DNA from: Hyphococcus sp.
Lineage (GTDB): Bacteria > Pseudomonadota > Alphaproteobacteria > Caulobacterales > Parvularculaceae
Reading direction: 5' to 3'
Assembly (NCBI GenBank): GCA_028281665.1
Contig: JANQJK010000027.1
Span: forward strand, 1-64,000
DNA length: 64,000 nt
This document shows positions 1 through 57,609 of this stretch, piece after piece. The position numbers and the translations under genes are program-made. Each line of letters begins with the position of its first letter. Within the stretch, counting starts at the first letter, position 1. Below the pieces are notes generated by a model. The model was not told where the DNA came from. It ran no database searches and saw only the letters and a list, made by a program, of their open reading frames with translations.

Positions 1-23
1 GCCGCATAAACGAGGCCGGACAC

Positions 24-683
24 ATGAACGCACTCGACCAAGCGCCAGACCGCATCAAAAAAGTTCTTGCCAAACAAGGGCCGTCCACACATGAATCACT
101 GCTTGGGCGTATGCCCTCCGAGGGCCACAATCGCATCGCTGCATCGTCGCTGGCGCGCGTAGCTTTTGACCCAACGTTGCCGGCGTGTACTCCGCTGCCG
201 TCGTCAGCACGGTCGGAATTGGAAGCGCGTCCGGCAGATAGTTCGCCTGAGATTGACTGGGCGCATATCGCCACCGCGCTGACGAGCGGGCGCGCGATTC
301 TGCGCGCATCCAAGCAAGTTCGGCGACGGGCGCGTGACCTTCAGACGACCTTTATCGCACCGTCGCCCGGCCTTGAAAGCGATATTGCGCGTATCTGGGA
401 AGACATTCTGGCCGTGTCGCCGGTTGGCGCACAGGACTCATTCGAAGACCTCGGCGGAAAGTCCATCGATCTTGTGCAGGTCCACTCACGGCTTGCCCGA
501 CTGCTTGGACGTTCGCTTGATCTCACACTGTTGTTTGAGTGTTCCACGCCGGCCCGGCTTGCCCGTCGCCTCGGCGATCGGGACGCGCCCGTGGGTCTTA
601 GTGCCGATGTGCGCGCATCCGCCATGGCCCGGGCGCGCGTCGATCATGGGCGGCGTCTGAAAGAGATACGGGAGAGTCTGTAA
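24..683 (+). CDS. Freestanding acyl/peptidyl carrier protein of a PKS-NRPS line
   Basis: 219 residues. The C-terminal ~85 residues form a carrier domain with the phosphopantetheine motif LGGKSID, the modified serine being about S147. Residues 95-115 (a KQVRRRARDL-like stretch running into AP.PGLE) resemble the linker that precedes carrier domains in large synthases, so this may be a carrier split off from a longer ancestor. The first ~90 residues match nothing I recognise. The start is supported by GAGG at 12-15, eight bases before the ATG, and by an apparent stop of an upstream gene at 7-9. The stop abuts the next ATG. It probably holds the acyl starter used by the downstream ketosynthase; the loading ligase would lie left of the window. 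Confidence 0.8.
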   Translation: MNALDQAPDRIKKVLAKQGPSTHESLLGRMPSEGHNRIAASSLARVAFDPTLPACTPLPSSARSELEARPADSSPEIDWAHIATALTSGRAILRASKQVRRRARDLQTTFIAPSPGLESDIARIWEDILAVSPVGAQDSFEDLGGKSIDLVQVHSRLARLLGRSLDLTLLFECSTPARLARRLGDRDAPVGLSADVRASAMARARVDHGRRLKEIRESL

Positions 684-3515
684 ATGAGCGAGCATGCAAA
701 GGGCGTCGCCATTGTCGGCATGGCCGGACGATTTCCGGGCGCCGGCGACGTCGACAAATTCTGGGAAAACATCAAGAACGGCGTTGAGTCCATCACGCGG
801 TTTTCCCGCGACGATCTCGAACTGCCGCCGCCCGAAATTCAAGAGGACGCAAGCAACTATGTCTGCGCCAAAGGGCAGCTCGACGATATCGACATGTTTG
901 ATGCGCGCTTCTTCGGTTATCTGCCGAAGGAAGCAGAAGTCATGGATCCGCAGCACCGGGTTTTCCTGGAAATCTGCTGGGAGGCGATGGAGCGGGGCGG
1001 CTATGACCCGTCACGCTATCCGGGCGCGGTCGGGGTATTCGGCGGTTGTTACATGGACACATACGTCCTGAACAATCTGTGTTCCGATGAAGACTTTCGC
1101 CGGAAGCTTGTAGAATCGATACAGGTCGGGTCTCTGCAAACTGAGCTTGGCAACGACAAGGATTATCTCGCAACGCGGGTCGCTTACAAGCTGGGCCTGC
1201 GCGGCCCGGCAATGACGCTTCAGACAGCGTGCTCCACATCGCTTGTCGCCATTGCGACGGCTTGCCAGAGTATCGAATCCTATCAGTGCGACATGGCGCT
1301 CGCCGGCGGCGTTACAATCGTATTGCCGCAGCGAAAGGGCTATTTCTACAAGGAAGGCGGCATGCTGTCGCCCGATGGACGTTGCCGGCCTTTTGACGAA
1401 AAGGCCGCCGGAACGGTCTTCTCCAACGGCGCCGCCGTTGTCCTTTTAAAGCGCGAGGAAGATGCGATACGCGACGGCGACACGATCTACGCCGTTATCC
1501 GCGGTTACGCGACGAACAATGATGGCGGCGACAAGTTGAGCTACACGGCGCCGAGCGTCGATGGGCAGGCGGAAGTCATTTCGCTGGCTCTCGGCATGGG
1601 CGGCGTTGACGCACGGTCGATAGGATACGTCGAAGCGCACGGAACCGCGACGCCCCTTGGAGATCCGATTGAGATCGCCGGGCTCACGACCGCCTATCGT
1701 CGAGATACGGACGACAAACAGTTCTGCGCGCTTGGGTCTGTGAAAGCCAATCTCGGTCATTTGGATTGCGCGTCCGGCGCGATCGGGCTGATCAAGACGT
1801 CGCTGGCGTTGAACGACAAGCTTTTGCCGCCGCTGCTCCACTTCGAGGCGCCCAATCCAAAAATCGACTTCAACGAATCGCCCTTCTTCATCAACACGAA
1901 ATTGCAGCACTGGGAGTCGGACGGGCCGCGGCGTGCCGGCGTTTCGTCGTTCGGCGTTGGCGGCACGAACGCCCATGTGGTTGTCGAAGAAGGGCCGCCC
2001 GTTAACACGGATGCGGCGCGGCGCGGCCACGAACTTCTTGTATTGTCTGCGCGTTCAGAGGCGGCGCTTGAAAACCAGGCGGCGCGTCTCGCCGCGCATT
2101 TCCAAGACCATCCTGATACGGATCTCGCTGACGCCGCCCATACGTTAAGGGTCGGTCGCAAGCAGTTCGAGCATCGACGTGTCGTGGTCGCGTCAGATCT
2201 GCGGGAAGCAGCGTCGAAACTACGTGAGCGCGCGCGCCCCGGAGACAAGGGCCTTGCTGACGCATCGGCGCCGGAAATCGTCTTCATGTTTCCGGGGCAG
2301 GGCGCACAGCAGCCGGGCATGGGGCGCGATCTTTATCGGTCGGAACCGGTTTACCGGGAAGCCGTCGACAGGATTGCCGAAACGTTCCTCGCTGACAATT
2401 CTTATGGCCGCGATATTCGCGATTTCCTCCTGTGGGATGACGCGTCGCGTCTTTCGGAAGAAACGGCGACCCGTGCACTCGCGGACACCGCCAATACGCA
2501 GCCGGCGCTCTATGCAATTGAATGCGCGCTTGCGGCGCTGGTGAAAAGCTGGGGGGTGAAGCCTGCTGCGGTTATTGGTCACTCCGTCGGTGAATTTGCA
2601 GCGGCCGCAACGGCCGGTGTGTTTTCGCTGGAGGACGGCGCACGGCTCGTCGCGGCGCGCGCATCGGCGATGCAGGTGCAGCCCGCCGGCGCCATGCTCG
2701 CGGTGATGCAGGACGCGAGCGAGCTAAAAGACGCGTTGTCGGAAGGAACCAGCATTGCCGCTGTCAACGCGCCGGGCGCCTGCGTCGTCAGCGGCGACCA
2801 TGAGGCCATCGCTCGGTTCGCAACGCGGCTTGAAGCCGAAGGCGTATCGGCGATGCGTCTGAAGACGTCCCACGCCTTTCATTCGCCGATGATGGGCGGC
2901 GCCAAAGCGGCCCTGGTCGACAGTGCGAAATCATTAACCATGTCGCCTGCGACGGCTGAGTTCTATTCGACGCTCACCGGCGGGCTGGTTGACGCTGGCG
3001 CGCTCGCCGATCCCGAATACTGGGGCGAAGAAATGATGCGCCCTGTATTGTTTTGCGACGCTTTGCGCGCCGCCGGCGACGCCGCGCCCGCGCGCCTCTT
3101 TCTCGAACTGGGGCCCGGCCGCACGCTGACCGGCTTTGCGCGCGCTGCCTTCGGGCCGGCGGCAAAAGCGTTTCCGGCGCTGGAGGCCGTGGATGCGGCT
3201 GGCAGCGACGTCGCGGCCCTTCTTCAGGCGATCGGGCGCCTGTGGACCCACGGGGCGACGCCGGACTGGAGCGCGTTAACCGTCGGGCGGCGGCGGCGCA
3301 TTCCGCTTCCAACTTACGCTTTTGAACGCAAACGATTCTGGGTCGATCCGGTCCCGGCGGGCCCGCCCGCTGGCGCAGACGTTGCAGTGCATGCGCAAAG
3401 CGTTAACGGCGCGGCAGGATCGCCCAACGGTGCGGAAAACAGCGCCGTCGAGACCATCATTGACCAGCAGCTCGACGTTATCGCCGACCAGCTTGCGCTT
3501 CTTAAAGCGATATGA
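684..3515 (+). CDS. Type I polyketide synthase, KS-AT
   Basis: 943 residues. A ketosynthase (about 5-435) has the catalytic triad C183 (in TACSTSL), H319 (in EAHGTATPLGDP) and H359 (in VKANLGH). An acyltransferase (about 532-830) has the serine S634 in GHSVGE and the HAFH motif near 730-733, which in this family predicts malonyl-CoA. There is no KR, DH, ER or ACP, so the beta-keto group stays unreduced. The extender must sit on the ACP that starts the next protein. The last ~25 residues are a short acidic helix-like tail that could be a docking element. It follows the carrier gene with no gap. Role inferred: one malonyl extension of an acyl starter, giving a beta-ketoacyl thioester. The KS-AT assignment is secure; the starter is unknown. 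Confidence 0.95.
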   Translation: MSEHAKGVAIVGMAGRFPGAGDVDKFWENIKNGVESITRFSRDDLELPPPEIQEDASNYVCAKGQLDDIDMFDARFFGYLPKEAEVMDPQHRVFLEICWEAMERGGYDPSRYPGAVGVFGGCYMDTYVLNNLCSDEDFRRKLVESIQVGSLQTELGNDKDYLATRVAYKLGLRGPAMTLQTACSTSLVAIATACQSIESYQCDMALAGGVTIVLPQRKGYFYKEGGMLSPDGRCRPFDEKAAGTVFSNGAAVVLLKREEDAIRDGDTIYAVIRGYATNNDGGDKLSYTAPSVDGQAEVISLALGMGGVDARSIGYVEAHGTATPLGDPIEIAGLTTAYRRDTDDKQFCALGSVKANLGHLDCASGAIGLIKTSLALNDKLLPPLLHFEAPNPKIDFNESPFFINTKLQHWESDGPRRAGVSSFGVGGTNAHVVVEEGPPVNTDAARRGHELLVLSARSEAALENQAARLAAHFQDHPDTDLADAAHTLRVGRKQFEHRRVVVASDLREAASKLRERARPGDKGLADASAPEIVFMFPGQGAQQPGMGRDLYRSEPVYREAVDRIAETFLADNSYGRDIRDFLLWDDASRLSEETATRALADTANTQPALYAIECALAALVKSWGVKPAAVIGHSVGEFAAAATAGVFSLEDGARLVAARASAMQVQPAGAMLAVMQDASELKDALSEGTSIAAVNAPGACVVSGDHEAIARFATRLEAEGVSAMRLKTSHAFHSPMMGGAKAALVDSAKSLTMSPATAEFYSTLTGGLVDAGALADPEYWGEEMMRPVLFCDALRAAGDAAPARLFLELGPGRTLTGFARAAFGPAAKAFPALEAVDAAGSDVAALLQAIGRLWTHGATPDWSALTVGRRRRIPLPTYAFERKRFWVDPVPAGPPAGADVAVHAQSVNGAAGSPNGAENSAVETIIDQQLDVIADQLALLKAI

Positions 3516-3533
3516 CGGGGAATTTCGGGAACG

Positions 3534-6500
3534 ATGACAGCAATGGCCGAACGCGAAGCCGCCATTCTCGCACGACTGATATCCGTAATGACGGACTTAT
3601 CGGGCTTTGCGGAAAATGACATCGACGCCGGGCGCACATTTCTTGAGCTCGGGTTTGACTCGCTTTTTCTGACGCAGCTGGCGACGGCGTTCCAGAAAGA
3701 GTTCGGAACGCCGGTGACGTTTCGCCAATTGATTACGGATCATCCGACGCCGGCGGCCCTCGCGGCGTGGGTGTCGGATCAGGCGCCGGCTCCAGAGCCG
3801 ACCGTTCCGACAGACCAGCCTGCGCGCGAGGCAGAGCCGCAGATTGCAGCACCGACCTTTGCGAAAACTAACCGCGATACCGACGAGATCGCTAACGTCT
3901 TCGCGCGACAGCTCGAACTGATGCGCAACCAACTTGAGTTTCTTCGGGCGAATGGTTCAGCCGCCGTTCCAGCGGCGGCCGAACCCGCGGAGAGCACGGG
4001 ACTAAACGAGGCGCTCGCCACGCCATCCGACGCTGCGTCGGCTTCTGACGACGCCCCGGCGACGTTGCCCGCAGGTTTTGGTCCGCAAACCGGTGAACAC
4101 AATGGCGATCTAGAGCTGACGACGACGCAACGTCGTCATGTTGAGCGGCTTGTTGCGCGGTACAATGCGAAAACGCCGAAGTCGAAAGAACATGTGCAAG
4201 CCGATCGCGCACGCCATGCCGACCCGCGTACGGCCGCCGGCTTCAATCCGCTCTGGAAGGAGATGGTCTACCCGATCGTCGTCAACCGGTCCAAAGGCGC
4301 TTATCTCTGGGACGTCGACGACAATCAGTATATTGATCTTCTGAATGGCTTTGGCCCGAATTTCTTCGGCCATCGCGCGGACTTCGTCACCGAAGCGCTG
4401 AAAGCGCAGCTCGATGACGGTTTTGAAATCGGGCCGCAGACGCCGCATGCGGGCGACGCCGCGGCGCTCCTGTGCGAATTGACCGGCATGGAGCGGGCAA
4501 GCTGGGTCAACACCGGCTCCGAGGCCGTGCAGGCGGCGATCCGCATTGCGCGAACGGTCTCGGGCTGCGACAAGATCGTCGTATTCAAGGGCTCCTATCA
4601 CGGCAACTTTGACGAAGTGCTGGTTCGCGGCGTAAGCGGCCGCGATGGCGCGGGCCGAACGCTGCCCCTGGCGCCCGGCATTCCATTCGGCTCCGTCGAG
4701 AACGTAATCGTGCTCGAATACGGCAAAGATGAAGCGCTTGAAGCGATCGCGGCGGACGCGGCATCGGTCGCAGCAGTGCTGGTCGAGCCTGTACAGAGCC
4801 GTCGCCCGGATTTTCAGCCGCGCGAGTTTTTGCAAAAACTCCGGCGCCTGACGGAAGAAAAAGACATCGCTCTTGTCTTCGACGAGGTGATTACCGGCTT
4901 TCGCACCGGGCCGGGCGGGGCGCAGGAATATTTCGGCGTAAGGGCCGATCTTGCAACATACGGCAAGATTCTTGGGGGCGGAATGCCCATTGGCGCCGTC
5001 GCCGGATCGTCAAAATATATGGACACGTTTGACGGCGGCCAATGGCGTTTCGGTGACGCTTCGAAACCCGAGGCGGGCGTCACGTTCTTCGCAGGCACTT
5101 TCGTGCGCCACCCCCTGGCGATTGCCGCCGCGTATGCTTCACTCAGGCACTTGAAAGAGCAGGGCCCCGCGCTTCAAGAGCGCGCCAGCGCGCTCGCCGC
5201 TCGTTTTGCCGATGAACTCAATGCCTTCTTCGAGGAGCGCGGCGTGCGCTTTCGCGTTCTCCAGTTCGCCTCGCAGATGTTCTTCCGAATTGACGAACCG
5301 TCGCCCCTTGCAACGCTTTTCTTTTATCACATGCGCGAACGCGGCGTGCATCTGCTTGAGGGCTTTCCCTGTTACATGACCGCCGCGCATACGGGTGACG
5401 ATGTCGCTGCGGCGATCGATGCGGCCAGGGAAACGATTCTTGAAATGCAGGCGGACGGCGTGTTGCCGGACGCGGATATGGAAGACGAGCGGGCGCAGCC
5501 CGTTACAGCGCGCATGCCGCTGACGGCGGGACAGGAGTTGATCTGGTCGATAGCGCAGTTTGGCGCGCAGGCTTCCTGCGCGTTTAATGAATCCGATCGC
5601 TTCCAAATCGATGGCGCCCTTGATCGCGACGCCTTTGCGGACGCGGTCAATACGGCGATAGCGGCCCATGAAGCCTTTCGCCTTCGTTTCGATGCGGTCG
5701 GGGCGGTCCAGTTCGTGGCTGACGGGACCGGTTTCGCGCTGAAACACGCCGATCTTTCAGACCTTGCTGAAAACGAGCAGCAACGAACAATCATCAGCTG
5801 GGTGGAGACGCAGGCGACGACGCCGTTTGATCTGGAAGAGGGGCCGCTCTGTCGTGCGCGGCTCTTCCGTATCGACGATGAGACGCATGTCTTTGTCTTC
5901 TTCGCCCATCACCTGGTCTTTGACGGGTATTCGTCCGACTTGCTCATTCGCGATATCTCCCGACGTTACGGCGCCGGCGTTACCGGCGAATGCGTCGCTC
6001 CGTCCGAGACGGCGCCGTACTCCGCCTATGTTTCAAAAACGGCGGCGCTCACGCCGGTTCCCCAGTTCTGGCGACAATTGTTTGCGGACGGCGCGCCACC
6101 TCCGCTCGATCTGCCAACCGACGCGCCGCGCGCGGAGGCCTTTTCGTTTCGCGGGGCGACCGCGCGTAGAACGGTTCCCGCTGAGGCAAGCGATGAGATT
6201 CGGGCGATGGCCCGGCGCCTTGGGGTTTCAATGTCCGCCGTGACGATGTCTGCTTATGCAGCGCTCTTGTCCGGACTATCGGGCAGAGCCGACTTCGTCA
6301 TCGGATTGCCCGCAGCGGGCCAGGCGCGTCACGGCGTCGAGACCGTCGGTTACTGCGTGAACGTCCTGCCGATGCCGGTACGCGCCGCCGCCGAGCAGAC
6401 CTTCGAACGGCTTGCAAAAAACCTTCAGGAACTGACGTTCGACGCATTCGAACACCAGGATCTTTCGCTAACCGCGCTGACGAGCGAGCTCGCCGCCGCG

Positions 6501-7148
6501 TCCGCGCCAGGAAACCGCCCGCTTATTGAGGCGATGTTTAACTTTGGGGGATATTTTCGAGACCTGAAGGCCGCGGGCGTTACTTTCCGCGCCGCCGAGA
6601 ACGAACGCCGCGCCGTTTGCAACGAGCTGTTCTTTAACATGTCTGACGCTGGCGACGCGTTACATATCGATCTCGAATATGCAGCCGACTTGTTCGACGC
6701 AGCGACGATTGAGGCGTGGCTTGACGATTATGTCGCCATTCTGTCCGAAGCGGCCCGCGATTCGGCGGTTGCGTTGAGTGAGCTGACGCCGCGACGCGGC
6801 GGCTCGCGTGCGAATGTTGTGTTGTTCGAGAGCCATCGCGTGAAGCGCGAAGGTGAATCGGGCGCCGCGGATGGTGAGCAATCGTTAAGCGCGACGGAGC
6901 ACGCTCTTGTTGAGGCGGTTGGCGCAGTGCTCGGCCGCGAAGACGTTTCGGTCGATGCCGGTTTCTTTGAACTTGGCGGCCACTCCATTCACGCGTCCCG
7001 CCTTCTGACGCGGCTTCGCCTTGGAATAGCGCCGACGCTCGGCATCCGTGCAATTTTCGAATCGGAAAGCCTGCGGTCGCTGGCCGCGCATATCGATGAG
7101 CTGAATAGATCTGACGAAATCATCGAACGCGAGGAGTTTGTATTTTGA
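3534..7148 (+). CDS. Hybrid synthase ACP-aminotransferase-condensation-PCP
   Basis: 1204 residues. Order: ACP (about 10-82, serine S43 in GFDSL); an Ala/Pro-rich linker; a class III PLP aminotransferase of the glutamate-semialdehyde-aminomutase type (about 230-645) with SYHGNFDE, LVFDEVITGFR and the likely PLP lysine K478 in TYGKILGGG; an NRPS condensation domain (about 660-1090) with HHLVFDG at 792-798; and a PCP with GGHS (S1151). The ACP-aminotransferase pair matches the arrangement used by iturin/mycosubtilin- and microcystin-type synthases to convert a beta-ketoacyl-ACP into a beta-aminoacyl-ACP. There is no adenylation domain between the condensation domain and the PCP, which is unusual. 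The 3' end overlaps the next gene by 4 bases. Confidence 0.93.
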   Translation: MTAMAEREAAILARLISVMTDLSGFAENDIDAGRTFLELGFDSLFLTQLATAFQKEFGTPVTFRQLITDHPTPAALAAWVSDQAPAPEPTVPTDQPAREAEPQIAAPTFAKTNRDTDEIANVFARQLELMRNQLEFLRANGSAAVPAAAEPAESTGLNEALATPSDAASASDDAPATLPAGFGPQTGEHNGDLELTTTQRRHVERLVARYNAKTPKSKEHVQADRARHADPRTAAGFNPLWKEMVYPIVVNRSKGAYLWDVDDNQYIDLLNGFGPNFFGHRADFVTEALKAQLDDGFEIGPQTPHAGDAAALLCELTGMERASWVNTGSEAVQAAIRIARTVSGCDKIVVFKGSYHGNFDEVLVRGVSGRDGAGRTLPLAPGIPFGSVENVIVLEYGKDEALEAIAADAASVAAVLVEPVQSRRPDFQPREFLQKLRRLTEEKDIALVFDEVITGFRTGPGGAQEYFGVRADLATYGKILGGGMPIGAVAGSSKYMDTFDGGQWRFGDASKPEAGVTFFAGTFVRHPLAIAAAYASLRHLKEQGPALQERASALAARFADELNAFFEERGVRFRVLQFASQMFFRIDEPSPLATLFFYHMRERGVHLLEGFPCYMTAAHTGDDVAAAIDAARETILEMQADGVLPDADMEDERAQPVTARMPLTAGQELIWSIAQFGAQASCAFNESDRFQIDGALDRDAFADAVNTAIAAHEAFRLRFDAVGAVQFVADGTGFALKHADLSDLAENEQQRTIISWVETQATTPFDLEEGPLCRARLFRIDDETHVFVFFAHHLVFDGYSSDLLIRDISRRYGAGVTGECVAPSETAPYSAYVSKTAALTPVPQFWRQLFADGAPPPLDLPTDAPRAEAFSFRGATARRTVPAEASDEIRAMARRLGVSMSAVTMSAYAALLSGLSGRADFVIGLPAAGQARHGVETVGYCVNVLPMPVRAAAEQTFERLAKNLQELTFDAFEHQDLSLTALTSELAAASAPGNRPLIEAMFNFGGYFRDLKAAGVTFRAAENERRAVCNELFFNMSDAGDALHIDLEYAADLFDAATIEAWLDDYVAILSEAARDSAVALSELTPRRGGSRANVVLFESHRVKREGESGAADGEQSLSATEHALVEAVGAVLGREDVSVDAGFFELGGHSIHASRLLTRLRLGIAPTLGIRAIFESESLRSLAAHIDELNRSDEIIEREEFVF

Positions 7149-10100
7149 TAGAACCGGCGCGAATAGATTCAGTCGACGATTTCCTGCATCAGATGCGCGA
7201 CTGCGGCGTGACGTTCGGGCGCGAAGACGGCGCGTTGCGCGTGACGGCGCCGAAAGGCCGGCTGTCGACGGCGGACGCCGCCTATATTCGCGACCATAAG
7301 GTTGAAATTCTTTCGGCGCTCGGGGATGACAATACGCTAACGTCACCGACAACCGCCGGGTCTTTGCGCGAGCCGTTGTCCTATCAGCAGGAGAAAATCT
7401 GGTCCCACCAGCTCATGTTCCCCGAAATGTCGCTGTACAATCTCGCAACGGCGTGGCGGCTCCATGGAGATCTCGATACGGCGGCGTTTGCTCGCGCCTT
7501 TGGCCGGGTTGTCGCGCGCCACGATGTTCTGCGTGCGCGTTTCGAGATGATCGATGGCGCGCCGTTCGTTTCCTATCGCGAGGCTGTGCAGGTCGAGTTG
7601 CCCGTTGAGGACCTCGGCCCTGAGTTAAGCGACCGCGATCTCGTCGCGGAGCTGGAGACGCTGCGAGATGCGCCGATGGCGCTCGACCGGGGCGAAGTCT
7701 TCCGTGCGCGCCTTCTGCGGCGCACGGCGCGCGAGCACGTCTTCTTTTTCTCGCCCCATCACATCGTTTGGGATGGGCTGTCCTGGGACGTGTTTTTCCG
7801 GGAGCTTTCGGCGTTTTATGTGGAAGAAACAGGCGGCGATGGCGCCGACTTGCCGCCGCTTACTAATCGATATGCGGACTTTGCCGCAACCCATCGGCGC
7901 TGGATGAAAAGCGGCGCGCCCGAAAAGGAGTTGGAATACTGGCGCACTTATTATTCAAGCGATACGCCGCCGCTGGCGCTGCCTGCGGACGTGAAGCGGC
8001 CGAAACTTTTTACCTATGAAGGAAGCGCCGTCAGTTTCGACCTGCCGGCGGATGTCGTCTCGTCGGTGCGGGCGCTGGCGACACAAAGTCGGTGTACGCC
8101 CTTTGTTGTCTATCTCACAGCGTGGCAGGCCTATCTGCACCGGATAACAGGGCAATCGGATATTGTGGTCGGCGCGCCTGTGCAGGGTCGCCAGGATGAG
8201 GGCGCCGCCGACCTTATCGGCTGTTTCGGCAATGTCCTTGGTCTGCGCGCGCAAGTCGATGCGGCTGGCTCATTTTCCTCCATGCTTGCGCGCACGCGCG
8301 CCACGTTTTTTGACGTTATCGAACGTCAGCAGACGCCAGTTGAATTTCTGGCCTCGGAGCTGCGCGGATCGCGGGACGTATCGCGTACGGCCCTGTTCCA
8401 GGCGCTGTTCACCTATCAAAATGAAACTGAGCGCCCGCAACGGATCGGCGACATTGCTCTTGAAACGATCGATATCGCGCCCGGCGGCGCGCCGACGGAT
8501 ATTCGTCTGGAAATCACGGAAACCGGCGAGGCCGCAACTGGCGAGGTCAACTATGCGACTGATGTGGTGAACGCCGAGGGCGCAAAGCACCTTGCAGACG
8601 GCTTCATGGTGTTCCTGGCGGATGCACTCGCCCATCCCGATAAGCGCATCGCCGATATTGAAGTCATGTCGGCCGAAAGCAAACGGTGCGTCCTTTCCGA
8701 ATGGAACGAGACGAATACTGATTACCGCTGGGATGCGCTCGCCTTCGACTATTTTGACGAAGCCGCCGCCGCCCATCCTGACGCGCCGGCGATCAGCATT
8801 GGCGAGAAGTCACTCACCTATGCGCAGTTGCAGTCCCGCGCCAATCGCATCGCTCACCTTCTGCGCGGCGAAGGCGTCGAAGAGGGCGATATTGTCGCCG
8901 TCTACATGAATCGATCCATTGATATGATCGCGTCGATTCTCGGTGTCTGGAAGGCGGGCGCGGCGTTGCTGCCGATTGATCCGGAATTCCCGCAAAACCG
9001 CCTCGCCTACATGCTTGAAGACGCGCGGGCCAAAGCGGTCCTCTCCGTAACGCCTTTGATTGAGGACTGGCTGGTTGCAGCCGCGCCGGTGATCGACCTT
9101 GAGGCGCGCGCTGCCGCGCTCGATGCGATGCCGGAGACGGCGCCGGCAATCGGGCGCGACAGGGCGGCTGAGCGTGCTTATGTCATCTACACGTCAGGGT
9201 CGACCGGCGATCCGAAGGGCGTTGAGAACTCCCATCGCGCGCTTTGCAACTTCATCGAAGGGATGATGCGTGAACCGGGCATGGTTCGGGAAGATCGCCT
9301 CCTCGCCGTAACGACGATCTCGTTCGACGTAATGCTGCTTGAGCTGTTTGTAACGCTGTCAGCCGGCGCGGAAATCGTGCTTGCGACCGAAGATGAAGGC
9401 ATGGACGGATTTGCCCTCGCGGATCTTATCGAACGCCGGGACATCACCGTATTGCAGGGCACGCCCGCAACCTGGCGTATTCTTTTTGACGCGGAATGGC
9501 GCGGCAAAGCGGACCTGAAAGCACTGTGCGGAGGGGAGGCCATGCCGGCGGATCTGGCGGACAGGCTGCCCAAACTCGCTGGCGAGCTATGGAACATGTA
9601 TGGGCCGACCGAGACGACCGTCTGGTCCACATGCGCGCTGATCGAAGACGCATCGAACATTCATGTGGGCCGGCCGATCCAGAACACGAAAGTCTATGTG
9701 CTCGACGATTTCGGCAACCCGGCGCCGGTCGGCGTCGCCGGCGATTTGTGGATCGGAGGAGACGGCGTCGCGCTTGGCTATCTCGGTAAACCGGCGCTGA
9801 CGGCGGAACGTTTCCGCGACAATCCGTTCGAGCCTTCTGCGGGACGAATCTACAACACCGGCGATCGCGCGCGTTGGCGGCGAGACGGCACGATGGAGAT
9901 CCTCGGCCGCCGCGATGAGCAGATCAAGGTTCGCGGCTACCGGATCGAACTTGGCGACATCGAGGCGGCGATAAACAAACACCCGGCCGTCCGCGAGGCG
10001 GCGGCGGCCCTGCGCGACGATCAGTCCGGCGAAGCGTCGCTCGTCGCTTATGTCGTTTTCAAGGACGGGCTGTCCGCCACGAACAGTGAGCTGCGCCGCT

Positions 10101-10465
10101 TCATGCGCGAGCATGTGCCCCATTACATGACGCCGCAGTTCTTTATGGAACTGTCGGCGCTGCCGCTCACGAACAACAATAAGATCGATCGCAAGGCGCT
10201 GCCGGCGCCGGCGGGCGTTGCCGCGTCGGCAAGGCGCGTTGCGCCGAGAACGCAGCGCGAGATTGCGCTTGCCGATATCTGGAGCGACATCCTGCGTGCG
10301 CCGGAAATCTCCGTGACGGATAATTTTTTCGAGCTTGGCGGTCAGTCTCTACAGGCCGCGCGGATGATCGCGCGCGCGCGGGACGCCATCGGTCTGACGA
10401 TTTCGGCACGCGAAGTGATTTTTGAAACCCTTGAGCAACTCGCAGCGGATTGCGTCGCTGCGTAA
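7145..10465 (+). CDS. NRPS, docking-condensation-adenylation(Gly?)-PCP
   Basis: 1106 residues. An N-terminal ~60-residue segment resembles the TubC docking domain. A condensation domain follows (HHIVWDG at 205-211), then an adenylation domain (about 525-1015) with YTSGSTGDPKG, YGPTETT and the A10 lysine in NNKIDRKALP, then a PCP with GGQS (S1068). Read against the GrsA positions, the binding-pocket code is D-V-L-Q-L-G-M-V-W-K, very close to the known glycine code DILQLG(L/M)IWK, so glycine activation is predicted. There is no thioesterase, reductase or terminal condensation domain. The start is a TTG overlapping the upstream TGA, with GAGGAG at 7131-7136. It is the last assembly-line protein of the operon. 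Confidence 0.93.
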   Translation: MIEPARIDSVDDFLHQMRDCGVTFGREDGALRVTAPKGRLSTADAAYIRDHKVEILSALGDDNTLTSPTTAGSLREPLSYQQEKIWSHQLMFPEMSLYNLATAWRLHGDLDTAAFARAFGRVVARHDVLRARFEMIDGAPFVSYREAVQVELPVEDLGPELSDRDLVAELETLRDAPMALDRGEVFRARLLRRTAREHVFFFSPHHIVWDGLSWDVFFRELSAFYVEETGGDGADLPPLTNRYADFAATHRRWMKSGAPEKELEYWRTYYSSDTPPLALPADVKRPKLFTYEGSAVSFDLPADVVSSVRALATQSRCTPFVVYLTAWQAYLHRITGQSDIVVGAPVQGRQDEGAADLIGCFGNVLGLRAQVDAAGSFSSMLARTRATFFDVIERQQTPVEFLASELRGSRDVSRTALFQALFTYQNETERPQRIGDIALETIDIAPGGAPTDIRLEITETGEAATGEVNYATDVVNAEGAKHLADGFMVFLADALAHPDKRIADIEVMSAESKRCVLSEWNETNTDYRWDALAFDYFDEAAAAHPDAPAISIGEKSLTYAQLQSRANRIAHLLRGEGVEEGDIVAVYMNRSIDMIASILGVWKAGAALLPIDPEFPQNRLAYMLEDARAKAVLSVTPLIEDWLVAAAPVIDLEARAAALDAMPETAPAIGRDRAAERAYVIYTSGSTGDPKGVENSHRALCNFIEGMMREPGMVREDRLLAVTTISFDVMLLELFVTLSAGAEIVLATEDEGMDGFALADLIERRDITVLQGTPATWRILFDAEWRGKADLKALCGGEAMPADLADRLPKLAGELWNMYGPTETTVWSTCALIEDASNIHVGRPIQNTKVYVLDDFGNPAPVGVAGDLWIGGDGVALGYLGKPALTAERFRDNPFEPSAGRIYNTGDRARWRRDGTMEILGRRDEQIKVRGYRIELGDIEAAINKHPAVREAAAALRDDQSGEASLVAYVVFKDGLSATNSELRRFMREHVPHYMTPQFFMELSALPLTNNNKIDRKALPAPAGVAASARRVAPRTQREIALADIWSDILRAPEISVTDNFFELGGQSLQAARMIARARDAIGLTISAREVIFETLEQLAADCVAA

Positions 10466-10522
10466 CATCGGCGCGGCCCGGCGATGACAACGCTCTGGAG
10501 AGGCTGCTGAGAGGAAACCGCA

Positions 10523-11329
10523 ATGGCCGCCACGCCACTACATTTCGGCGATAGCGATCGCAAGCTTTACGGCGTGTTCCATCATCCGGAACAACGCGCG
10601 GCCAACGCGCCGGCGGTCCTGTTACTCAACCCGTTTGGCGAGGAAGCGATCCGCTCGTTTCGGATTTTCAAGCAGCTTGCCGAGCGGCTGGCGCGCGCCG
10701 GCCGGCCCGTTTTGCGGTTCGACTATTACGGGACAGGCGACTCAGAGGGAGATTGCGAAACGGTCGACTTTGACGGGATGATCCGCGACGCCGCGACGGC
10801 TCAAGAGGAACTCGAAGCCTTGAGCGGCGCGCGGCGTTTCGTATGGGTGGGGCTCGGGCTCGGCGGCGCGGTCGCGCTTCGAGCGGCGATTGAAACCGCC
10901 GCAAGGCCGACGCAGTTGTTTCTGTGGGATCCGGTGCTCTCCGGCGCCGACTATCTTGCCGGGCTGCGGCGCGCGCACATTGCGACACTTTCGGCTGCGC
11001 TCGATCTGCCCCAGTCGCGGATCGAACGGGAGATTCCCGAGGAGATTTCCGAAGCGTTGGGGTTTTGCCTGCCGGACCGCTTTTGCGCGCAACTGAAAGT
11101 CTTTGACTTCGTTGAAAGCAGGAAGGTTGCCCGTGAGATCCGTCTGATCGGGTCAGAAGACACTGTCATCTCCGCACGGCACGAAGACGCGCTGAAAAAT
11201 GCGGCTGCGGAATTTCGTCAGTACGACAGCGGGTCGACCGTCTGGAACAGCAATGAGGCAATGAACGCCTACACCATTCCAATGGATGTGCTTGATTGTA
11301 TTGCCGGCTCGGCGGGCGGGCGGTCATGA
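10523..11329 (+). CDS. Alpha/beta-hydrolase-fold protein lacking the nucleophile
   Basis: 268 residues with an alpha/beta-hydrolase N-terminal half: an LLNPFGEE strand-loop, RFDYYGTGDSEG after strand 4, then the nucleophile elbow. The elbow reads GLGLGG, so the usual Ser of G-x-S-x-G is a Gly. No clear catalytic His is visible near the C terminus. It may be a non-catalytic partner or carrier-protein-binding protein. It resembles the second of the paired hydrolases that accompany exosortase-A loci (the TIGR03101 kind), but I cannot verify that without a search. GAGGAAA precedes the ATG. The gene overlaps the next hydrolase by 4 bases, implying coupled translation. Confidence 0.82.
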   Translation: MAATPLHFGDSDRKLYGVFHHPEQRAANAPAVLLLNPFGEEAIRSFRIFKQLAERLARAGRPVLRFDYYGTGDSEGDCETVDFDGMIRDAATAQEELEALSGARRFVWVGLGLGGAVALRAAIETAARPTQLFLWDPVLSGADYLAGLRRAHIATLSAALDLPQSRIEREIPEEISEALGFCLPDRFCAQLKVFDFVESRKVAREIRLIGSEDTVISARHEDALKNAAAEFRQYDSGSTVWNSNEAMNAYTIPMDVLDCIAGSAGGRS

Positions 11330-12180
11330 AAGAACGCATCATCCAGTTCGGCCCGGATGGCCTTTTGAGCGGCGTTCTGCGTGAAAGCGCCGCCGCCGGC
11401 GCGAACGGTCTCATGCTTTTCAATGCCGGCGTCGTTCACCGCATCGGTGCGCACCGGTTGAACGTGAAACTTGCGCGCGCGCTTCATGAGCCGAGCCTGC
11501 GGTTTGATCTGTCCGGGCAGGGTGAAAGCCCGGCCGCTGCGGCAGGACTCGGTTTCGAGGATCAGGCCATCGCGGATATCGCCGCTGCAATTGATGCGCT
11601 TGAGAATGAAGCAAATGTTGACGGCGTCGTCGCCATCGGCATGTGTTCGGGCGCGGATCACGCCCTGCGCGCCGCGGTCGTCGATCCCCGGATTAGCGGC
11701 GTTGTGTTGCTGGACCCGTATGCCTATCCGAACGACGACGCAGCGGGCGCGGACCTGCTGGCGCGCGCCGCCGATCCTGACCGTTGGTCGCGCAAAATTA
11801 AATCGCTCATGTTGCGCCGCGACGACGTCGGCGATACCGCCAGCGGGAATGGGCGCAGGACCGGGGGCGGCGACGAAATCGACCAGGGTCGCCCGCTCGC
11901 GCCAAAGGAAGAGTTCGCCGCTGACTTGACGGCGCTGGTTCAGCGCGGAGTTCGCATCCTTATTGTGTATACGGGACTGGTGCGCCGCCACGTCTCCAAG
12001 CCTGCGCATTTCTTCAAGACATTTGCGGCATATGACTTCGAAGGACGCATTGACGTTGAGGCCATGCCTCACACGGATCACACGTTTTCGACCATCGCGT
12101 CGCAGGAAACCCTCATTGGCCGTGTCGACGAATGGCTGCGCCGACGTTCTTCCGCCGCATGCGACAGGCGCGCATCGTGA
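11326..12180 (+). CDS. Alpha/beta hydrolase with cysteine nucleophile
   Basis: 284 residues from the ATG that overlaps the upstream TGA (ATGA); an in-frame ATG at 11296 is less likely. The fold is seen in RFDLSGQGES and in the elbow GMCSG, where Cys replaces the normal Ser. The likely acid/histidine region is AMPHTDHTFS near the C terminus. Exosortase-A-associated hydrolase 1 proteins (TIGR03100) also carry a Cys-type elbow, so that relationship is plausible. In this operon it could release or transfer the peptide-polyketide chain, since the NRPS has no thioesterase; this is inference. Its 3' end runs into the flippase gene. Confidence 0.85.
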   Translation: MKERIIQFGPDGLLSGVLRESAAAGANGLMLFNAGVVHRIGAHRLNVKLARALHEPSLRFDLSGQGESPAAAAGLGFEDQAIADIAAAIDALENEANVDGVVAIGMCSGADHALRAAVVDPRISGVVLLDPYAYPNDDAAGADLLARAADPDRWSRKIKSLMLRRDDVGDTASGNGRRTGGGDEIDQGRPLAPKEEFAADLTALVQRGVRILIVYTGLVRRHVSKPAHFFKTFAAYDFEGRIDVEAMPHTDHTFSTIASQETLIGRVDEWLRRRSSAACDRRAS

Positions 12181-13700
12181 GCGCCGGCGCCGCAGTCTCC
12201 GAAGCGCCCGCCCTGACCAAGCGCGTCATGCGGGGCGCCGCATGGATTATCGGCGGGCGTTTCGTTGTGCGCACGCTCGGTCTCGTCAATACGCTGATCC
12301 TCGCCCGGCTGCTCCTGCCGGAGGACTTCGGCCTTGTCGCCATCGGCGTCACCGTGATGCAGCTTCTGCAAAACATCACCGATATTGGCGTATCGCGCAC
12401 CGTCGTCAAATTCCGAGACGCAGGACGCAAACAATACGACACGTTGTTCACAATCTCCCTCATTCGCGGGCTTGCGGTAACGGCAGTCATGCTGCTTGCG
12501 GCGACGCTTGCGGGCGGCTTTTACAACGACCCCCGCGCAACCGTGGTCTTTTTCGGGATCAGCATCGTTCCGCTTCTTCACGCTATAATAAATCCGCGCT
12601 TCTTCGAGTTCGAACGCGAACTTGATTTTTCGAAGCAGTTCGGGCTGGAGGCCGCGGACAAACTCATTGGCGTTGCCGTGTCGATCACCATCGCTGTTGT
12701 ATTTCAAAGCTACTGGGCAATCATTCTCGGCCTGGTTTCCGGCGCATTTGCGCAAACCATCATGTCCTGGTTGCTTCGCCCGTACCGGCCGCGTCTTTCA
12801 TTCGCCGCGATCGGTGAGATCGGCGGTTTTGCCGGCTGGCTTGCGGGCCTGAGTTTTGTTGCTGCGCTGAACAACAAGCTTGATGTGCTGTTTCTCGGCA
12901 AGTTCGTCAGCCCGGCCGATGTCGGCGCGTTCTTTGTCGGCGGTTCTATTGCGTCCCTGCCGAGCGGGGAGGTCGCCATACCCATGGCGCGGGCCATTTA
13001 TCCGGGGTTTTCGGAGTTGCAGGGTGACAGCGCCGCCATGCGACGCGCCTATCTCCGCGGCGCCGAGGCGCTGGCCTTCATCGCGATGCCGGCCTCCTTC
13101 GGCGTTGCCTTCGTTGCGCAGGATCTCGTGGCGTTGCTGCTCGGCGCCGGCTGGGAGCGCGCGGTCTTGATGCTCCAGTATTTCAGCCCGGCCGCCGGTC
13201 TCGCCGTCATATTTTACGCGACCAACGCTTATGCGCTCGCGCTGGGCCGCGCACGGCTGATTTTCCTGCGAGAGGTTCTCGTATTTTTCATACGCATGCC
13301 GATTTTCATTATCGCGGCCTATTTCTACGGGCTGCTGGGCGCGGCGATTGCCTGCGCCGTCGGCCTTCTCGTGATTGCGCTGCTCAATGCCGGCCTTTAT
13401 GCGCGGCTCAGCGGCGGCGCGCCATTTGAGCCGCTCTGGCGCGCGCGGCGAAGCCTCGCAGGCGTCGCCGCCATGGCGGCGTACTTCGTTTTCCTGCGCG
13501 GACATCTGGGCGCTATCGATGATTGGCCGCTGGCTGCGCGCCTCACAGCCGACGCAGCGATTGGCGCGACTCTCTATTTCATGACGGTTTTGACATTATG
13601 GCGGGCCGAGGGCGCTCCCGACAGCGTTGAGCGGCTAGCCGTTAACCAACTTAGCGCCGCCAGCATCCGCTTTCGGCGGGTTCTGGGCGGCGTTTCTTAA
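12177..13700 (+). CDS. Wzx/MOP-family oligosaccharide or lipid flippase
   Basis: About 507 residues from the GTG that overlaps the upstream TGA (GTGA). An ATG at 12132 gives 522 residues and cannot be excluded. The protein is almost entirely hydrophobic segments, starting with a Wzx-like N terminus (RGAAWIIGGRFVVRTLG, then LARLLLPEDFGLVAIG). The family flips lipid-linked oligosaccharides or other amphiphiles across the inner membrane. As last gene of the PKS-NRPS operon it is the best candidate exporter for the product or for a glycan carrying it, but the substrate is not shown by sequence. A terminator lies about 100 bases downstream. Confidence 0.9.
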   Translation: MSAGAAVSEAPALTKRVMRGAAWIIGGRFVVRTLGLVNTLILARLLLPEDFGLVAIGVTVMQLLQNITDIGVSRTVVKFRDAGRKQYDTLFTISLIRGLAVTAVMLLAATLAGGFYNDPRATVVFFGISIVPLLHAIINPRFFEFERELDFSKQFGLEAADKLIGVAVSITIAVVFQSYWAIILGLVSGAFAQTIMSWLLRPYRPRLSFAAIGEIGGFAGWLAGLSFVAALNNKLDVLFLGKFVSPADVGAFFVGGSIASLPSGEVAIPMARAIYPGFSELQGDSAAMRRAYLRGAEALAFIAMPASFGVAFVAQDLVALLLGAGWERAVLMLQYFSPAAGLAVIFYATNAYALALGRARLIFLREVLVFFIRMPIFIIAAYFYGLLGAAIACAVGLLVIALLNAGLYARLSGGAPFEPLWRARRSLAGVAAMAAYFVFLRGHLGAIDDWPLAARLTADAAIGATLYFMTVLTLWRAEGAPDSVERLAVNQLSAASIRFRRVLGGVS

Positions 13701-19980: not shown

Positions 19981-20475
19981 ATGAGCGAGCTACCGGAATA
20001 TGTTCTGGACCGAACCTTCGATGCGTCGCGTGACCTTGTCTGGCGGGCCTGGACGGACCCTGACATTCTGCACCAGTGGTATGGCCCCGGCGTTGAAACA
20101 ATCATTCACCAGTATGACCTGAAGCCCGGCGGCGCCTGGCTCAACGAGATGAAAATGCGCGGCATGTCCGATTACAGCCGCATGGATTTTCAGGAGGTCG
20201 CCGAGGCGGAAAAACTCGTCTGGCATCACGCGTCTACCGATGCGGACTGGAACGTCGTCGCCAATCCCATGATGCCGGACTGGCCGCGGGTTCTCCTGAC
20301 GACGGTGACATTCTCTGATGCGGGCGGCAAAACCGACGTGCGCCTGTCGCAGGTCCCGATTGACGCCAGCGAGAAAGAAATCGCGGTCTTCGCTGAGATG
20401 ATGTCCAACATGGATGGCGGCTGGGGCAAAGGATACGCCATTATTGATGAGCTGCTGAGCCAGTTGCAGTCATAG
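19981..20475 (+). CDS. SRPBCC (AHSA1/START-like) domain protein
   Basis: 164 residues forming a single SRPBCC hydrophobic-pocket domain. It begins with YVLDRTFDASRDLVWRAWTDPD and contains QWYGPGVET and a C-terminal helix with WGKGYAIIDELL. The ArsR-SRPBCC gene pair is very common in proteobacteria; the ligand is usually unknown. A GAGTGAGG ribosome-binding site overlaps the arsR stop, so the two genes are co-transcribed and presumably co-regulated by the upstream operator. Confidence 0.9.
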   Translation: MSELPEYVLDRTFDASRDLVWRAWTDPDILHQWYGPGVETIIHQYDLKPGGAWLNEMKMRGMSDYSRMDFQEVAEAEKLVWHHASTDADWNVVANPMMPDWPRVLLTTVTFSDAGGKTDVRLSQVPIDASEKEIAVFAEMMSNMDGGWGKGYAIIDELLSQLQS

Positions 20476-20532
20476 GGCCTTTTGTTTCGCCTCCCCGGCG
20501 ACTCTCCCGAAGTCATCGCGAATCGGCCATAT

Positions 20533-20551
20533 GATCACCGGTAACGTGATC
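20533..20551 (+). repeat. Inverted repeat before chpT
   Basis: GATCAC (20533-20538) and GTGATC (20546-20551) form a perfect 6-base inverted repeat around a 7-base spacer. It lies immediately before the GGAG ribosome-binding site and 12 bases before the chpT ATG. It could be an operator or a small RNA hairpin affecting translation. Confidence 0.4.
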
Positions 20552-20563
20552 GGAGATGCGTAG

Positions 20564-21247
20564 ATGATATCGGACAATGCGGCGCCTGAGCCTGATAGCG
20601 CCGGGGAGACAGAAACGGGCCCCGACGCTCTCGGGCTGTCGGCTTTACTGTCGTCGCGGGTTTGCCACGATTTGATTAACCCGGTGGGCGCCATCGGCTC
20701 GGGCCTCGACGTACTCGACGATCCGGAAATGGATGAGTCCATGCGCGGCGCCGCGCTCGATTTGATCCGGTCCGGTGCAACGAAGGCCCTGGCGCTTTTG
20801 AGCTATGCGCGGCTCGCCTACGGCGCCGCGGGGGGATTTGGCGCCCAGATTTCCATGGACGACGCCCGTGAGGCGTTGGAGGGGCTTTACGCGACCCTGA
20901 AGCCCGACCTCGTCTGGGAGATGGCGGGCGGCATGGCGCCGAAGGAAAAGGTCAAGGCGATTTTAATCCTGACCAACGCTGCTGCGGATTGCATCCCCCG
21001 GGGCGGCGCCGTCACCATCGCCGGCGACATGGACGCTTTCAAGATTACCGCTGCCGGCAAGCGCATTTACCTACAGGAAGACCTCATTAAATCACTGCGC
21101 GGCGAGGCGCGCGACCTGACGCCCAAATTCACGCCGACACTGATTGCCGCGCAGATGATCGTCGAGGGCGGCGGGGCTGTTGACGCTTTTGCCGATGACG
21201 AAAAGGCGGTGATCGATGTCCGTTTCTCCGCCAGCGCAGGCGGTTGA
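20564..21247 (+). CDS. chpT: Histidine phosphotransferase ChpT
   Basis: 227 residues. The phosphorylated histidine is H35 in SRVCHDLINPVGAI, followed by the helical hairpin typical of ChpT dimerisation (ALDLIRSGATKALALLSYARLAYGA) and a C-terminal Bergerat-like domain that lacks ATP-binding boxes. In Caulobacter, ChpT relays phosphate from CckA to CtrA and CpdR and so controls the cell cycle. GGAG precedes the ATG by eight bases. A receiver-domain gene follows. CtrA-like boxes elsewhere in the window fit this circuit. Confidence 0.92.
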   Translation: MISDNAAPEPDSAGETETGPDALGLSALLSSRVCHDLINPVGAIGSGLDVLDDPEMDESMRGAALDLIRSGATKALALLSYARLAYGAAGGFGAQISMDDAREALEGLYATLKPDLVWEMAGGMAPKEKVKAILILTNAAADCIPRGGAVTIAGDMDAFKITAAGKRIYLQEDLIKSLRGEARDLTPKFTPTLIAAQMIVEGGGAVDAFADDEKAVIDVRFSASAGG

Positions 21248-21258
21248 CGGGGTGTTCG

Positions 21259-21273
21259 TTAACGCATCCCTAA
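21259..21273 (+). promoter_or_regulatory. CtrA-like box, TTAA-N7-CTAA
   Basis: TTAA (21259-21262), seven bases, then CTAA (21270-21273): one mismatch from the alphaproteobacterial CtrA consensus TTAA-N7-TTAA. It lies in the chpT-receiver intergenic region, 49 bases before the receiver ATG. A single near-match can occur by chance. Confidence 0.35.
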
Positions 21274-21322
21274 TACAGAGGCGGCATGATCGGCAGCGCA
21301 CCGGCGCCGCGCGAGGGAAACG

Positions 21323-21742
21323 ATGACCGAGAAAAAGACCTGTCTGATTATCGACGATTCAGAAGTGATCCGTGAGATTGCCGCGCGCATTGTCACCGAC
21401 CTCGGCTTGCGCGCCGTTCAGGCGGAAAGCGCTCCTGAAGCCATCGAAGTTTGTTCGGAAAACAAAACCGACGTCGCCCTTCTTGACTGGGACTTGCCGT
21501 CCATGGGCGCGCTCGACTTCCTTCGCAGCGCCGCCGAGTTGCCCGAGGAGAAAAAACCGGTGATCGTCCTTTGCGCGACCGAGAACGATCCTCAGCAGTT
21601 TACCTTGGCGAAGGCTGCCGGCGCGGCGCATCATATCCTCAAGCCATTCGATCGCGCGGCCGTGGAGGCGGCGTTCGCCGAGGCGGGCGTGGTCGAAAAG
21701 GTCGCCAACGATCGGGACATTTCCGTCGCGGCGAAAAAATAG
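21323..21742 (+). CDS. Single-domain response regulator (receiver only)
   Basis: 139 residues, one REC domain and no output domain. The acidic pair is in IIDDSE, the phosphoacceptor is D55 in LLDWDLPSM, the conserved lysine is in ILKPFD, and the switch position is in VIVLCATEND. Stand-alone receivers pass phosphate or act by binding partners (as CpdR and DivK do). Its position right after chpT suggests a role in the same phosphorelay, but the sequence is not clearly CpdR or DivK. A CtrA-like box lies upstream. Confidence 0.85.
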   Translation: MTEKKTCLIIDDSEVIREIAARIVTDLGLRAVQAESAPEAIEVCSENKTDVALLDWDLPSMGALDFLRSAAELPEEKKPVIVLCATENDPQQFTLAKAAGAAHHILKPFDRAAVEAAFAEAGVVEKVANDRDISVAAKK

Positions 21743-21806
21743 GACGTCCGCTCTATCGCCGCACTCCTGTCGACGATAAGGCGCAATTGAAGGTTAGCGA
21801 CAGGCC

Positions 21807-22619: not shown

Positions 22620-22716
22620 TGCCGGATCGCCGCAAAGTGGCCCTGATGCGACCGCGATCAGGGGGTAGTATTGCAGAACCGCCTGTTCGGCGCGGTGATT
22701 GGCGAAGCTACGCGTG

Positions 22717-55090: not shown

Positions 55091-55105
55091 TTAAGGCGGC
55101 GTTAA
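55091..55105 (-). promoter_or_regulatory. CtrA box upstream of fliO (TTAA-N7-TTAA)
   Basis: TTAA (55091-55094) and TTAA (55102-55105) with exactly seven bases between match the CtrA consensus perfectly, 49 bases before the fliO ATG. The right half overlaps the stop of the upstream glycosyltransferase gene. Early flagellar operons are established CtrA targets in Caulobacter. Confidence 0.55.
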
Positions 55106-57267: not shown

Positions 57268-57391
57268 TGCCGGCCGGGATCGTCTGTCGCTTGCGGACGC
57301 ATTATCCGTGAAAGATGTTAACGATCATCTTGCGGCGGCTCCGCCGGTCCCCGTTAATAATTTGTTCACGGACGGCGCTTAGCGAGTCCTC

Positions 57392-57541
57392 ATGGCGACC
57401 ACAGCGACACGGCGCGTACTCACTCCGACGGCTGCAAACGCAAATACGTCCGAGCGTTGGCCAGCGCCGCTGTGCTGGCTTTTCTGGGTCGCCTCGTCAG
57501 CCGCTTTGTGGTGCTTAATCCTTGCACCGTTTCTGCTCTGA
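57392..57541 (+). CDS. Putative 49-residue single-span membrane protein
   Basis: A short ORF, MATTATRRVLTPTAANANT followed by a hydrophobic segment of tryptophan, leucine and alanine residues (about 27-49), ending at TGA 57539-57541. A hydrophilic threonine/arginine-rich N terminus and one C-terminal membrane span are reasonable for a real small protein. It lies at the head of the EPS locus with the same orientation. I see no strong ribosome-binding site and no recognised family. Confidence 0.4.
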   Translation: MATTATRRVLTPTAANANTSERWPAPLCWLFWVASSAALWCLILAPFLL

Positions 57542-57594
57542 GCCTTAGCGCGCCGGGGCTTTGGCGGCTGCGGCAAAACTCCCCGTCTACATCG

Positions 57595-57609
57595 TTAACA
57601 ATCCGTTAG
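57595..57609 (+). promoter_or_regulatory. CtrA-like box, TTAA-N7-TTAG
   Basis: TTAA (57595-57598), seven bases, TTAG (57606-57609): one mismatch from the CtrA consensus, 105 bases before the sugar transferase ATG. It could place EPS synthesis under cell-cycle control, but a single near-match may be chance. Confidence 0.3.

Follow-up and report, generated by a model that had tools for sequence, protein, structure and literature searches.

The first 13,700 nucleotides of a 64,000-nucleotide stretch of Hyphococcus sp. DNA (bases 1-64000 of contig C11, JANQJK010000027.1, in a genome of 28 contigs and 3.35 Mb; below, the window) encode most of a compact assembly line that joins a polyketide synthase (PKS) to a non-ribosomal peptide synthetase (NRPS). 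We consider it rather probable that this line starts from a glycerate unit drawn from sugar breakdown, releases its chain through a pair of hydrolase-fold proteins, hyd2 and hyd1, and exports it through a flippase. The predicted product, 3-amino-4,5-dihydroxypentanoyl-glycine(-glycine), would be polar and not the lipopeptide that an earlier sequence-only reading of the locus had proposed; in place of the latter would stand a class of small, glycerate-derived beta-amino peptides, which lipid extracts would overlook. What is read directly from the sequence is the set of genes and domains, their active-site residues and order, and a split of the first gene, fkbH; the starter, the product, the loading of glycine in trans and the parts played by hyd1/hyd2 and the flippase are inferred from it. 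Where genomes, contigs and loci have to be told apart, our handles (G, C and L, with G000 for the present genome) are given in brackets.

The assembly line and its probable starter unit

The seven open reading frames (ORFs) at 24-13700 of the window all lie on the plus strand and are packed as closely as in one operon, with gaps of 0, 18, -4, 57, -4 and -49 nucleotides between successive frames, in agreement with the tight arrangement described before. Pfam and NCBIfam models assign to them, in order, a carrier domain (PCP); ketosynthase and acyltransferase (KS-AT); PCP, a class III aminotransferase (AMT), a condensation domain (C) and a second PCP; a docking domain followed by C, an adenylation domain (A) and PCP; two alpha/beta hydrolases; and a Polysacc_synt flippase (PF13440, 212 bits; PF01943, 100 bits). 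The active-site motifs are intact in KS (Cys/His/His), AT (GHSVG and HAFH), AMT (Lys) and the carriers (serines), and both C domains carry HHxxxDG. By sequence, the closest solved structure of the AMT domain is mycosubtilin MycA (416 bits, E 1e-123). Together, these domains and motifs back the malonyl extension, beta-keto transamination and condensation that had been proposed, and the absence of KR, DH, thioesterase (TE) and reductase domains holds as well, no Pfam model for any of them matching the seven proteins.

While this layout stands from the second gene onward, the first gene does not encode the whole acyl-loaded carrier that had been assumed. Since the window starts at the contig edge, its base 1 coinciding with the contig start, the ORF at 24-683 is only the tail of a gene, and it matches the C-terminal part of the first protein of related clusters, FkbH-PCP. 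The only FkbH match of the genome lies near the start of another contig, C18 (272.9 bits against the TIGR01686 cut-off of 146.65), where it is adjoined by a phosphopantetheinyl transferase (PPTase) gene at C18:1582-2328, detected with our own profile. We read the starts of the two contigs as carrying two parts of one gene, fkbH-PCP. Where an acyl-ACP ligase had been suggested, to the left of position 1, there are thus FkbH and the PPTase instead.

When the AMT protein was searched against the present genome and 59 related ones, 60 in all, five of the relatives gave long matches with identities of 48-75% (G023, G001, G014, G013, G029). Their first proteins, of 676-734 residues, have FkbH as main domain, with scores of 275.3 bits in G023, 266.6 in G001, 281.1 in G014 and 240.4 in G029; the copy of G013 straddles two sequence pieces and was detected by our own profile, not by the TIGR01686 scan. 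The motifs DxDxT, [ST]KN, the following Lys, DD and SCR are kept in all 23 aligned FkbH copies, that of the present genome included (22 are distinct, L052 and G454 being one contig), and the SCR cysteine is presumably the residue that carries the glyceryl group. Thus, the gene combines an above-cut-off FkbH domain, the HAD motifs and a carrier of its own, here split over two contigs. The domain is uncommon: only 30 of the 367 class genomes, the present one among them, have an FkbH match above the cut-off. FkbH enzymes, which are of the HAD type, load a glycerate unit onto a carrier and dephosphorylate it (PMC7489565, PMC8949500), and the vioprolide FkbH has been shown to use D-3-phosphoglycerate (PMC10099666).

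As the front part of the first gene is FkbH, the starter is most likely glyceryl and not fatty acyl. Against this assignment, FkbH might load some other small acid, or might be inert. An iturin-like lipopeptide would instead call for a free fatty-acyl-AMP ligase, encoded elsewhere, to load the first carrier. Such a ligase might be among the 13 above-cut-off AMP-binding matches of the genome, one of which is the A domain of the cluster itself, and both the kinship of the AMT with MycA and the KS-ACP-AMT-C layout, which is of the iturin/puwainaphycin kind (PMC4219810), are in line with this possibility. However, in each of the 12 other family clusters the loading domain to which the first carrier is fused is FkbH and no ligase, and the other part of the gene in this genome is FkbH, with the PPTase behind it. 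An A-domain profile, which detects an acyl-CoA ligase of this window at 116.8 bits, found no ligase-like ORF besides the NRPS A domains in the examined stretches of the 13 family clusters. We therefore regard the lipopeptide as very improbable: a fatty-acyl starter was rejected on the FkbH identity of the missing part of gene 1, and the "lipo" of the sequence-only reading most likely falls with it, FkbH standing in place of the fatty-acyl-AMP ligase or acyl-ACP ligase.

Recurrence of the cluster and probable incorporation of glycine

Is this line peculiar to this genome? Of 62 family genomes, 13, with the present one among them, have KS-AT orthologs of at least 57% identity over most of their length; in addition, G015 has a KS-AT fragment at a contig end, and G002 and G463 have more distant KS matches (43-51%). 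The order FkbH-PCP, KS-AT, PCP-AMT-C, then hyd2, hyd1 and flippase, is the same in all 13 clusters, counting the FkbH on C18, and our own profiles find FkbH and the first carrier in one open frame of 669-734 residues in the 12 others. A PPTase precedes FkbH in 12 of the 13, again counting the copy on C18; none was detected before FkbH in G462. The flippase adjoins hyd1 throughout, inverted in four cases, which corroborates the earlier view of hydrolases and flippase as parts of the set. Such a recurrence of gene order is more than chance. In two loci the gene after the flippase encodes an FGGY carbohydrate kinase (L043:1148-2629, minus strand; L052:21369-22844, plus strand), whose presence could be related to a substrate of the glycerate type or reflect synteny alone.

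The NRPS part is more variable. A C-PCP module without A, a feature that the sequence-only reading had not flagged, precedes the C-A-PCP module in six clusters (the window, G023, G001, G014, G029 and G454), while two have C, A-PCP and C-A-PCP (G013 and G457). The code of the window A domain, with its ten positions mapped by hand from sequence motifs, is DVLQLGMVWK. The code DILQLGMIWK appears in print for Gly-activating domains (PMC12283262), and supports the addition of glycine that had been predicted. In each of the 13 family clusters the final A domain has a Gly-like code, and where FkbH lines have two A domains, both are Gly-type in four of five (L049, L051, L062 = G013, and G457), the exception being L053, whose second A domain is not. 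Two Gly-type A domains also occur in L059, L065 and L087, where the starter is an A domain or was not seen. For the window type, these codes support, without proving, a Gly-Gly unit whose two carriers are both charged by a single A domain. Several observations count against so uniform a picture: a single C-A-PCP module is all that is present in five of the 13 clusters (G449, G450, G451, G452 and G462), and in G462 its code departs from Gly at two places; in the A-starter lines L100, L102 and L103 a Gly-type code is combined with a different one; and the verrucomicrobial FkbH lines L058, L060, L063, L107 and L124 read non-Gly-like codes, so that glycine does not hold for FkbH lines in general.

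The following course of synthesis would accommodate these features. FkbH would transfer a glyceryl group from 1,3-bisphosphoglycerate (or 3-phosphoglycerate) to its fused carrier, as judged from the family; KS-AT would add one malonyl unit to give 3-oxo-4,5-dihydroxypentanoyl-ACP, which the embedded aminotransferase would convert to 3-amino-4,5-dihydroxypentanoyl-ACP. The first C domain would then join the beta-amino acyl chain to glycyl-PCP, the carrier without A probably being charged in trans by the single Gly A domain, and the second C domain would add another glycine. Finally, hyd2 and hyd1 would free the chain or hand it on, with hyd1 providing a Cys-Asp-His site and hyd2 acting as a partner without nucleophile, and the MOP flippase would translocate the product across the inner membrane, either as such or linked to a lipid.

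For a wider view, the AMT protein alignment was scanned against one genome per species (84,980 species), and the best 80 of 255 relatives were taken. Among these 80, 17 have an FkbH domain; many others have an amino-acid-type A domain at the starter place, and many loci are cut by contig ends. Lines predicted to make such small polar peptides thus occur in Proteobacteria, with FkbH-started kin in Acidobacteriota and Verrucomicrobiota. In a tree of 81 AMT rows, all 19 FkbH rows fall on one side of 30 rows (SH-aLRT, an approximate likelihood ratio test, 99), together with three A-starter and eight unknown-starter rows, and the other side of 51 rows has no FkbH row; the window AMT lies within a 13-row clade of FkbH lines only (SH-aLRT 99). 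The tree was made by a quick method, and its long branches make single placements unsure; its starter labels were set by hand, 26 of the 81 being unknown and that of L084 doubtful. Two observations on these kin may be added. A malonyl-CoA decarboxylase gene (L049:18835-20226, minus strand) lies beside the FkbH line of L049. Eleven A-starter loci (L064, L066, L067, L072, L075, L079, L082, L092, L093, L097 and L120) encode a C-PCP-TE protein in which our profile finds no A domain; A-less modules therefore recur in the family at another position.

Proposed chain release and export

The hyd2/hyd1 pair is the least expected point of the cluster. We infer that it acts in trans to off-load the chain, and what argues for this role is its distribution relative to TE domains that are part of the NRPS itself (cis-TEs). 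With our own TE profile and among the best 80 relatives, a cis-TE is found in none of 11 loci with hyd1 and in 47 of 69 without (Fisher 1.8e-5, a test that treats related clusters as independent trials, which they are not). Where the end of the NRPS is visible, the counts are 0 of 9 and 42 of 49; among FkbH loci only, they are 0 of 10 and 5 of 7. Pfam also recognises the cis-TE of four of these loci, L053, L058, L060 and L124. A terminal cyclising cis-TE, as in iturin synthesis, is thus absent from the seven proteins and from all 11 hyd1 loci.

The predicted structure of hyd1 is in line with a catalytic role. All 13 aligned hyd1 proteins share Cys107, Asp130 and His252, and in the model (mean pLDDT, its confidence score, 83.7) Cys107 sits on a strand-helix nucleophile elbow, with Asp130 directly behind the strand that comes next and His252 behind the final one. 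This is the triad layout described for most NRPS thioesterases (PMC11298585). The elbow of hyd2 lacks Ser and Cys, so the pair has a Cys elbow in hyd1 only.

This combination recalls hydrolases 1 and 2 of exosortase-A systems. The scores are 93.9 bits for hyd1 against a TIGR03100 cut-off of 168.45 and 84.3 for hyd2 against a TIGR03101 cut-off of 202.75, while clear exosortase-A hydrolases in L151 (334 and 242 bits, over the cut-off), which lie beside a TIGR03098 ligase (745 bits), are 29% and 34% identical to the window hyd1 and hyd2, respectively. Given these identities and the sub-threshold scores, the pair is best classified as kin of the exosortase-A families, not as a member. Nor does it adjoin an exosortase: the sole exosortase match of the genome is at G000:C10:128927-129670, and neither hyd1 nor hyd2 is found in the 20 kb surrounding it. 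An AMP-binding ORF, C10:130393-131535, lies near this exosortase.

In the class, hyd1 occurs in at least 16 of 385 genomes, this one included (E 1e-15; at most six candidates per genome were scored). In the 15 others, hyd2 lies beside hyd1 in nine and is fused to it in six, with frame breaks in at least two of the 15. The fused ORFs span about 460-820 residues (L146-L150 and L158), and our profiles find no KS, AMT, C or A domains near them; in L147 and L150 the neighbour is a protein of 852 and 824 residues, respectively, with a weak GalA match only.

Several findings weigh against release by this pair. L049 and L063 have FkbH and lack both hyd1/hyd2 and a cis-TE, and five further loci without the pair, whose NRPS end is visible, have no cis-TE either. 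In seven of the 13 family clusters a separate TE gene lies on the opposite strand between the NRPS and hyd2 and could do the release (confirmed by Pfam in two, L048 = G449 and L081 = G450); no such gene is present in the window cluster. PF00975, the thioesterase model, matches neither hyd1 nor hyd2, which are recognised by general alpha/beta hydrolase models only, and exosortase-type hyd1 copies, among them that of L151, which keeps the Cys, have Asn in place of Asp130. Only tentatively, then, do we propose that the pair forms a so far unrecognised release or transfer enzyme, in which a hydrolase without nucleophile and a Cys hydrolase together move carrier-bound chains, of PKS-NRPS origin here and made by a ligase and carrier in the exosortase-A kin, onto an acceptor that the MOP flippase takes outward.

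Could the chain end up on the cell surface? The pair might move the acyl-dipeptide to a sugar or lipid carrier and the flippase the lipid-linked product, as a decoration rather than a free secretion. The constant pairing of a MOP flippase with hyd1 across the 13 family clusters would fit, as would the neighbourhood of hyd1 in two loci, L051, where an 877-residue GINT1_N and GT2 protein (20434-23064, plus strand) and then another Polysacc_synt protein follow, and L123, with GT2 nearby; in L151, moreover, the exosortase-A pair adjoins an acyl ligase. Yet Pfam finds no glycosyltransferase inside the window cluster, and the exopolysaccharide-like genes at the right end of the window, at 55-63 kb, are more than 40 kb away, making this outcome unlikely. 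The latter genes, at 55102-63569, include GT4 and weak Wzz and BBP2_2 matches.

The apparently interrupted fkbH and relation to known systems

Both parts of fkbH run from coding sequence into about 90 nucleotides of foreign DNA (window 1-90; C18:1-92), which in the window is missing from aligned relatives and contains the start codon, the ATG at 24, of the ORF called there. The two foreign pieces share a 12-nucleotide end in inverted orientation (window 78-89; C18:81-92), and ATG flanks the insert on both sides. The split would fit the insertion of an element that ends in terminal inverted repeats and leaves a 3-nucleotide target repeat, its body having been lost from the assembly; this body was not found there, and window 1-84 has no second copy elsewhere in it. 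Because both contig edges fall inside the insert, an assembly fault at the two ends is possible. An exact overlap of 5 to 199 nucleotides between the two contig ends was not found. The end TGTGGACGG and the frame that begins beside it resemble IS481; this assignment was dropped, as a search for that family gave two sub-threshold copies, both lacking the repeat.

No uninterrupted fkbH was found in the genome, and the gene appears broken in this strain; with fkbH interrupted, the line is therefore probably off or crippled here. Has the cluster as a whole become a remnant, its synthesis ended by the insert and the rest no longer under selection? The inverted-repeat ends of the DNA that splits fkbH and the patchy occurrence of the cluster, in 13 of 62 family genomes, point that way, but the downstream ORFs are open and their motifs intact, so that any loss would be recent, and the possible assembly fault counts against it as well. 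We hold decay to be a real possibility, if somewhat short of an even one, and it is compatible with a glycerate-started line released by hyd2/hyd1. The features are collected below.

Table. Features of the predicted glycerate-type PKS-NRPS cluster (window positions unless a contig is given)
Feature	Position	Strand	Basis or remark
Foreign DNA inside fkbH at contig edge	1..90		inverted-repeat end at 78-89
3' part of fkbH-PCP, carrier PCP1 (previously called as ORF 24-683)	91..683	+	5' part elsewhere
5' part of fkbH-PCP, FkbH domain	G000:C18:95-1030	-	FkbH match on separate contig
KS-AT, malonyl type (HAFH)	684..3515	+	Pfam and motifs
ACP-aminotransferase-C-PCP, C-PCP part without A domain	3534..7148	+	Pfam, motifs
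Docking-C-A(Gly-type)-PCP	7145..10465	+	Pfam, A-domain code
hyd2, alpha/beta-hydrolase fold, no Ser or Cys as nucleophile, distantly related to TIGR03101	10523..11329	+	profile score, elbow residues
hyd1, alpha/beta hydrolase, Cys107-Asp130-His252, distant TIGR03100 relative	11326..12180	+	alignment, model
MOP-superfamily (Wzx-like) flippase	12132..13700	+	Polysacc_synt match

In the literature searched, where subscription journals were mostly out of reach and an absence is therefore weak, neither an FkbH-KS-AT-AMT line nor a 3-amino-4,5-dihydroxypentanoyl product was met with, in keeping with the earlier statement that no described product could be matched. Solanimycin, considered for its Gly module and MATE exporter, was rejected: it comes from a line of another kind, of trans-AT type, in which a P450/transaminase route runs separately (PMC10204066). 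The closest parallels in domain order are the synthetases of iturin and mycosubtilin (MycA) and of puwainaphycin, in which, as here, a class III AMT is embedded in the PKS module and an NRPS C domain comes next, and the KS-ACP-AMT-C module with its MycA-like AMT is present in the window. Unlike them, the window has FkbH for the fatty-acyl-AMP ligase, hyd2/hyd1 and the flippase instead of a cis-TE, and, across the family, one or two Gly-type modules. With the vioprolide, corramycin and cystomanamide lines it shares an FkbH with its own carrier that brings in a glycerate unit (PMC8949500, PMC10099666, PMC9581180), and with corramycin also a hydrolase and a flippase-like exporter, ComB and ComC (PMC10099666). 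There, however, FkbH belongs to an internal C-FkbH-T module after a fatty acyl start, whereas in the present line it stands first, ahead of KS-AT-AMT. Though uncommon, a MOP flippase next to a peptide line has parallels: besides corramycin, our profile finds more distant MOP proteins (76-116 bits) near the kin lines L064, L077, L086, L087, L092, L095, L096 and L097.

As to release, the Cys-type NRPS thioesterases SulM, ObiF1 and AB3403 have the Cys after beta5, as in hyd1, and AB3403 also the Asp after beta6 (PMC11298585); in contrast to them, hyd1 is free-standing, escapes PF00975 and is accompanied by hyd2. Exosortase-A hydrolases 1 and 2 (TIGR03100 and TIGR03101) form the same pair, with a Cys elbow in hyd1 and none in hyd2, but the window pair lies in a PKS-NRPS cluster and not beside an exosortase. 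Because the probable substrate of the pair can be predicted here, as a chain that neighbouring genes build on a carrier, the cluster offers a direct test of what the exosortase-A "hydrolase 1/2" proteins do.

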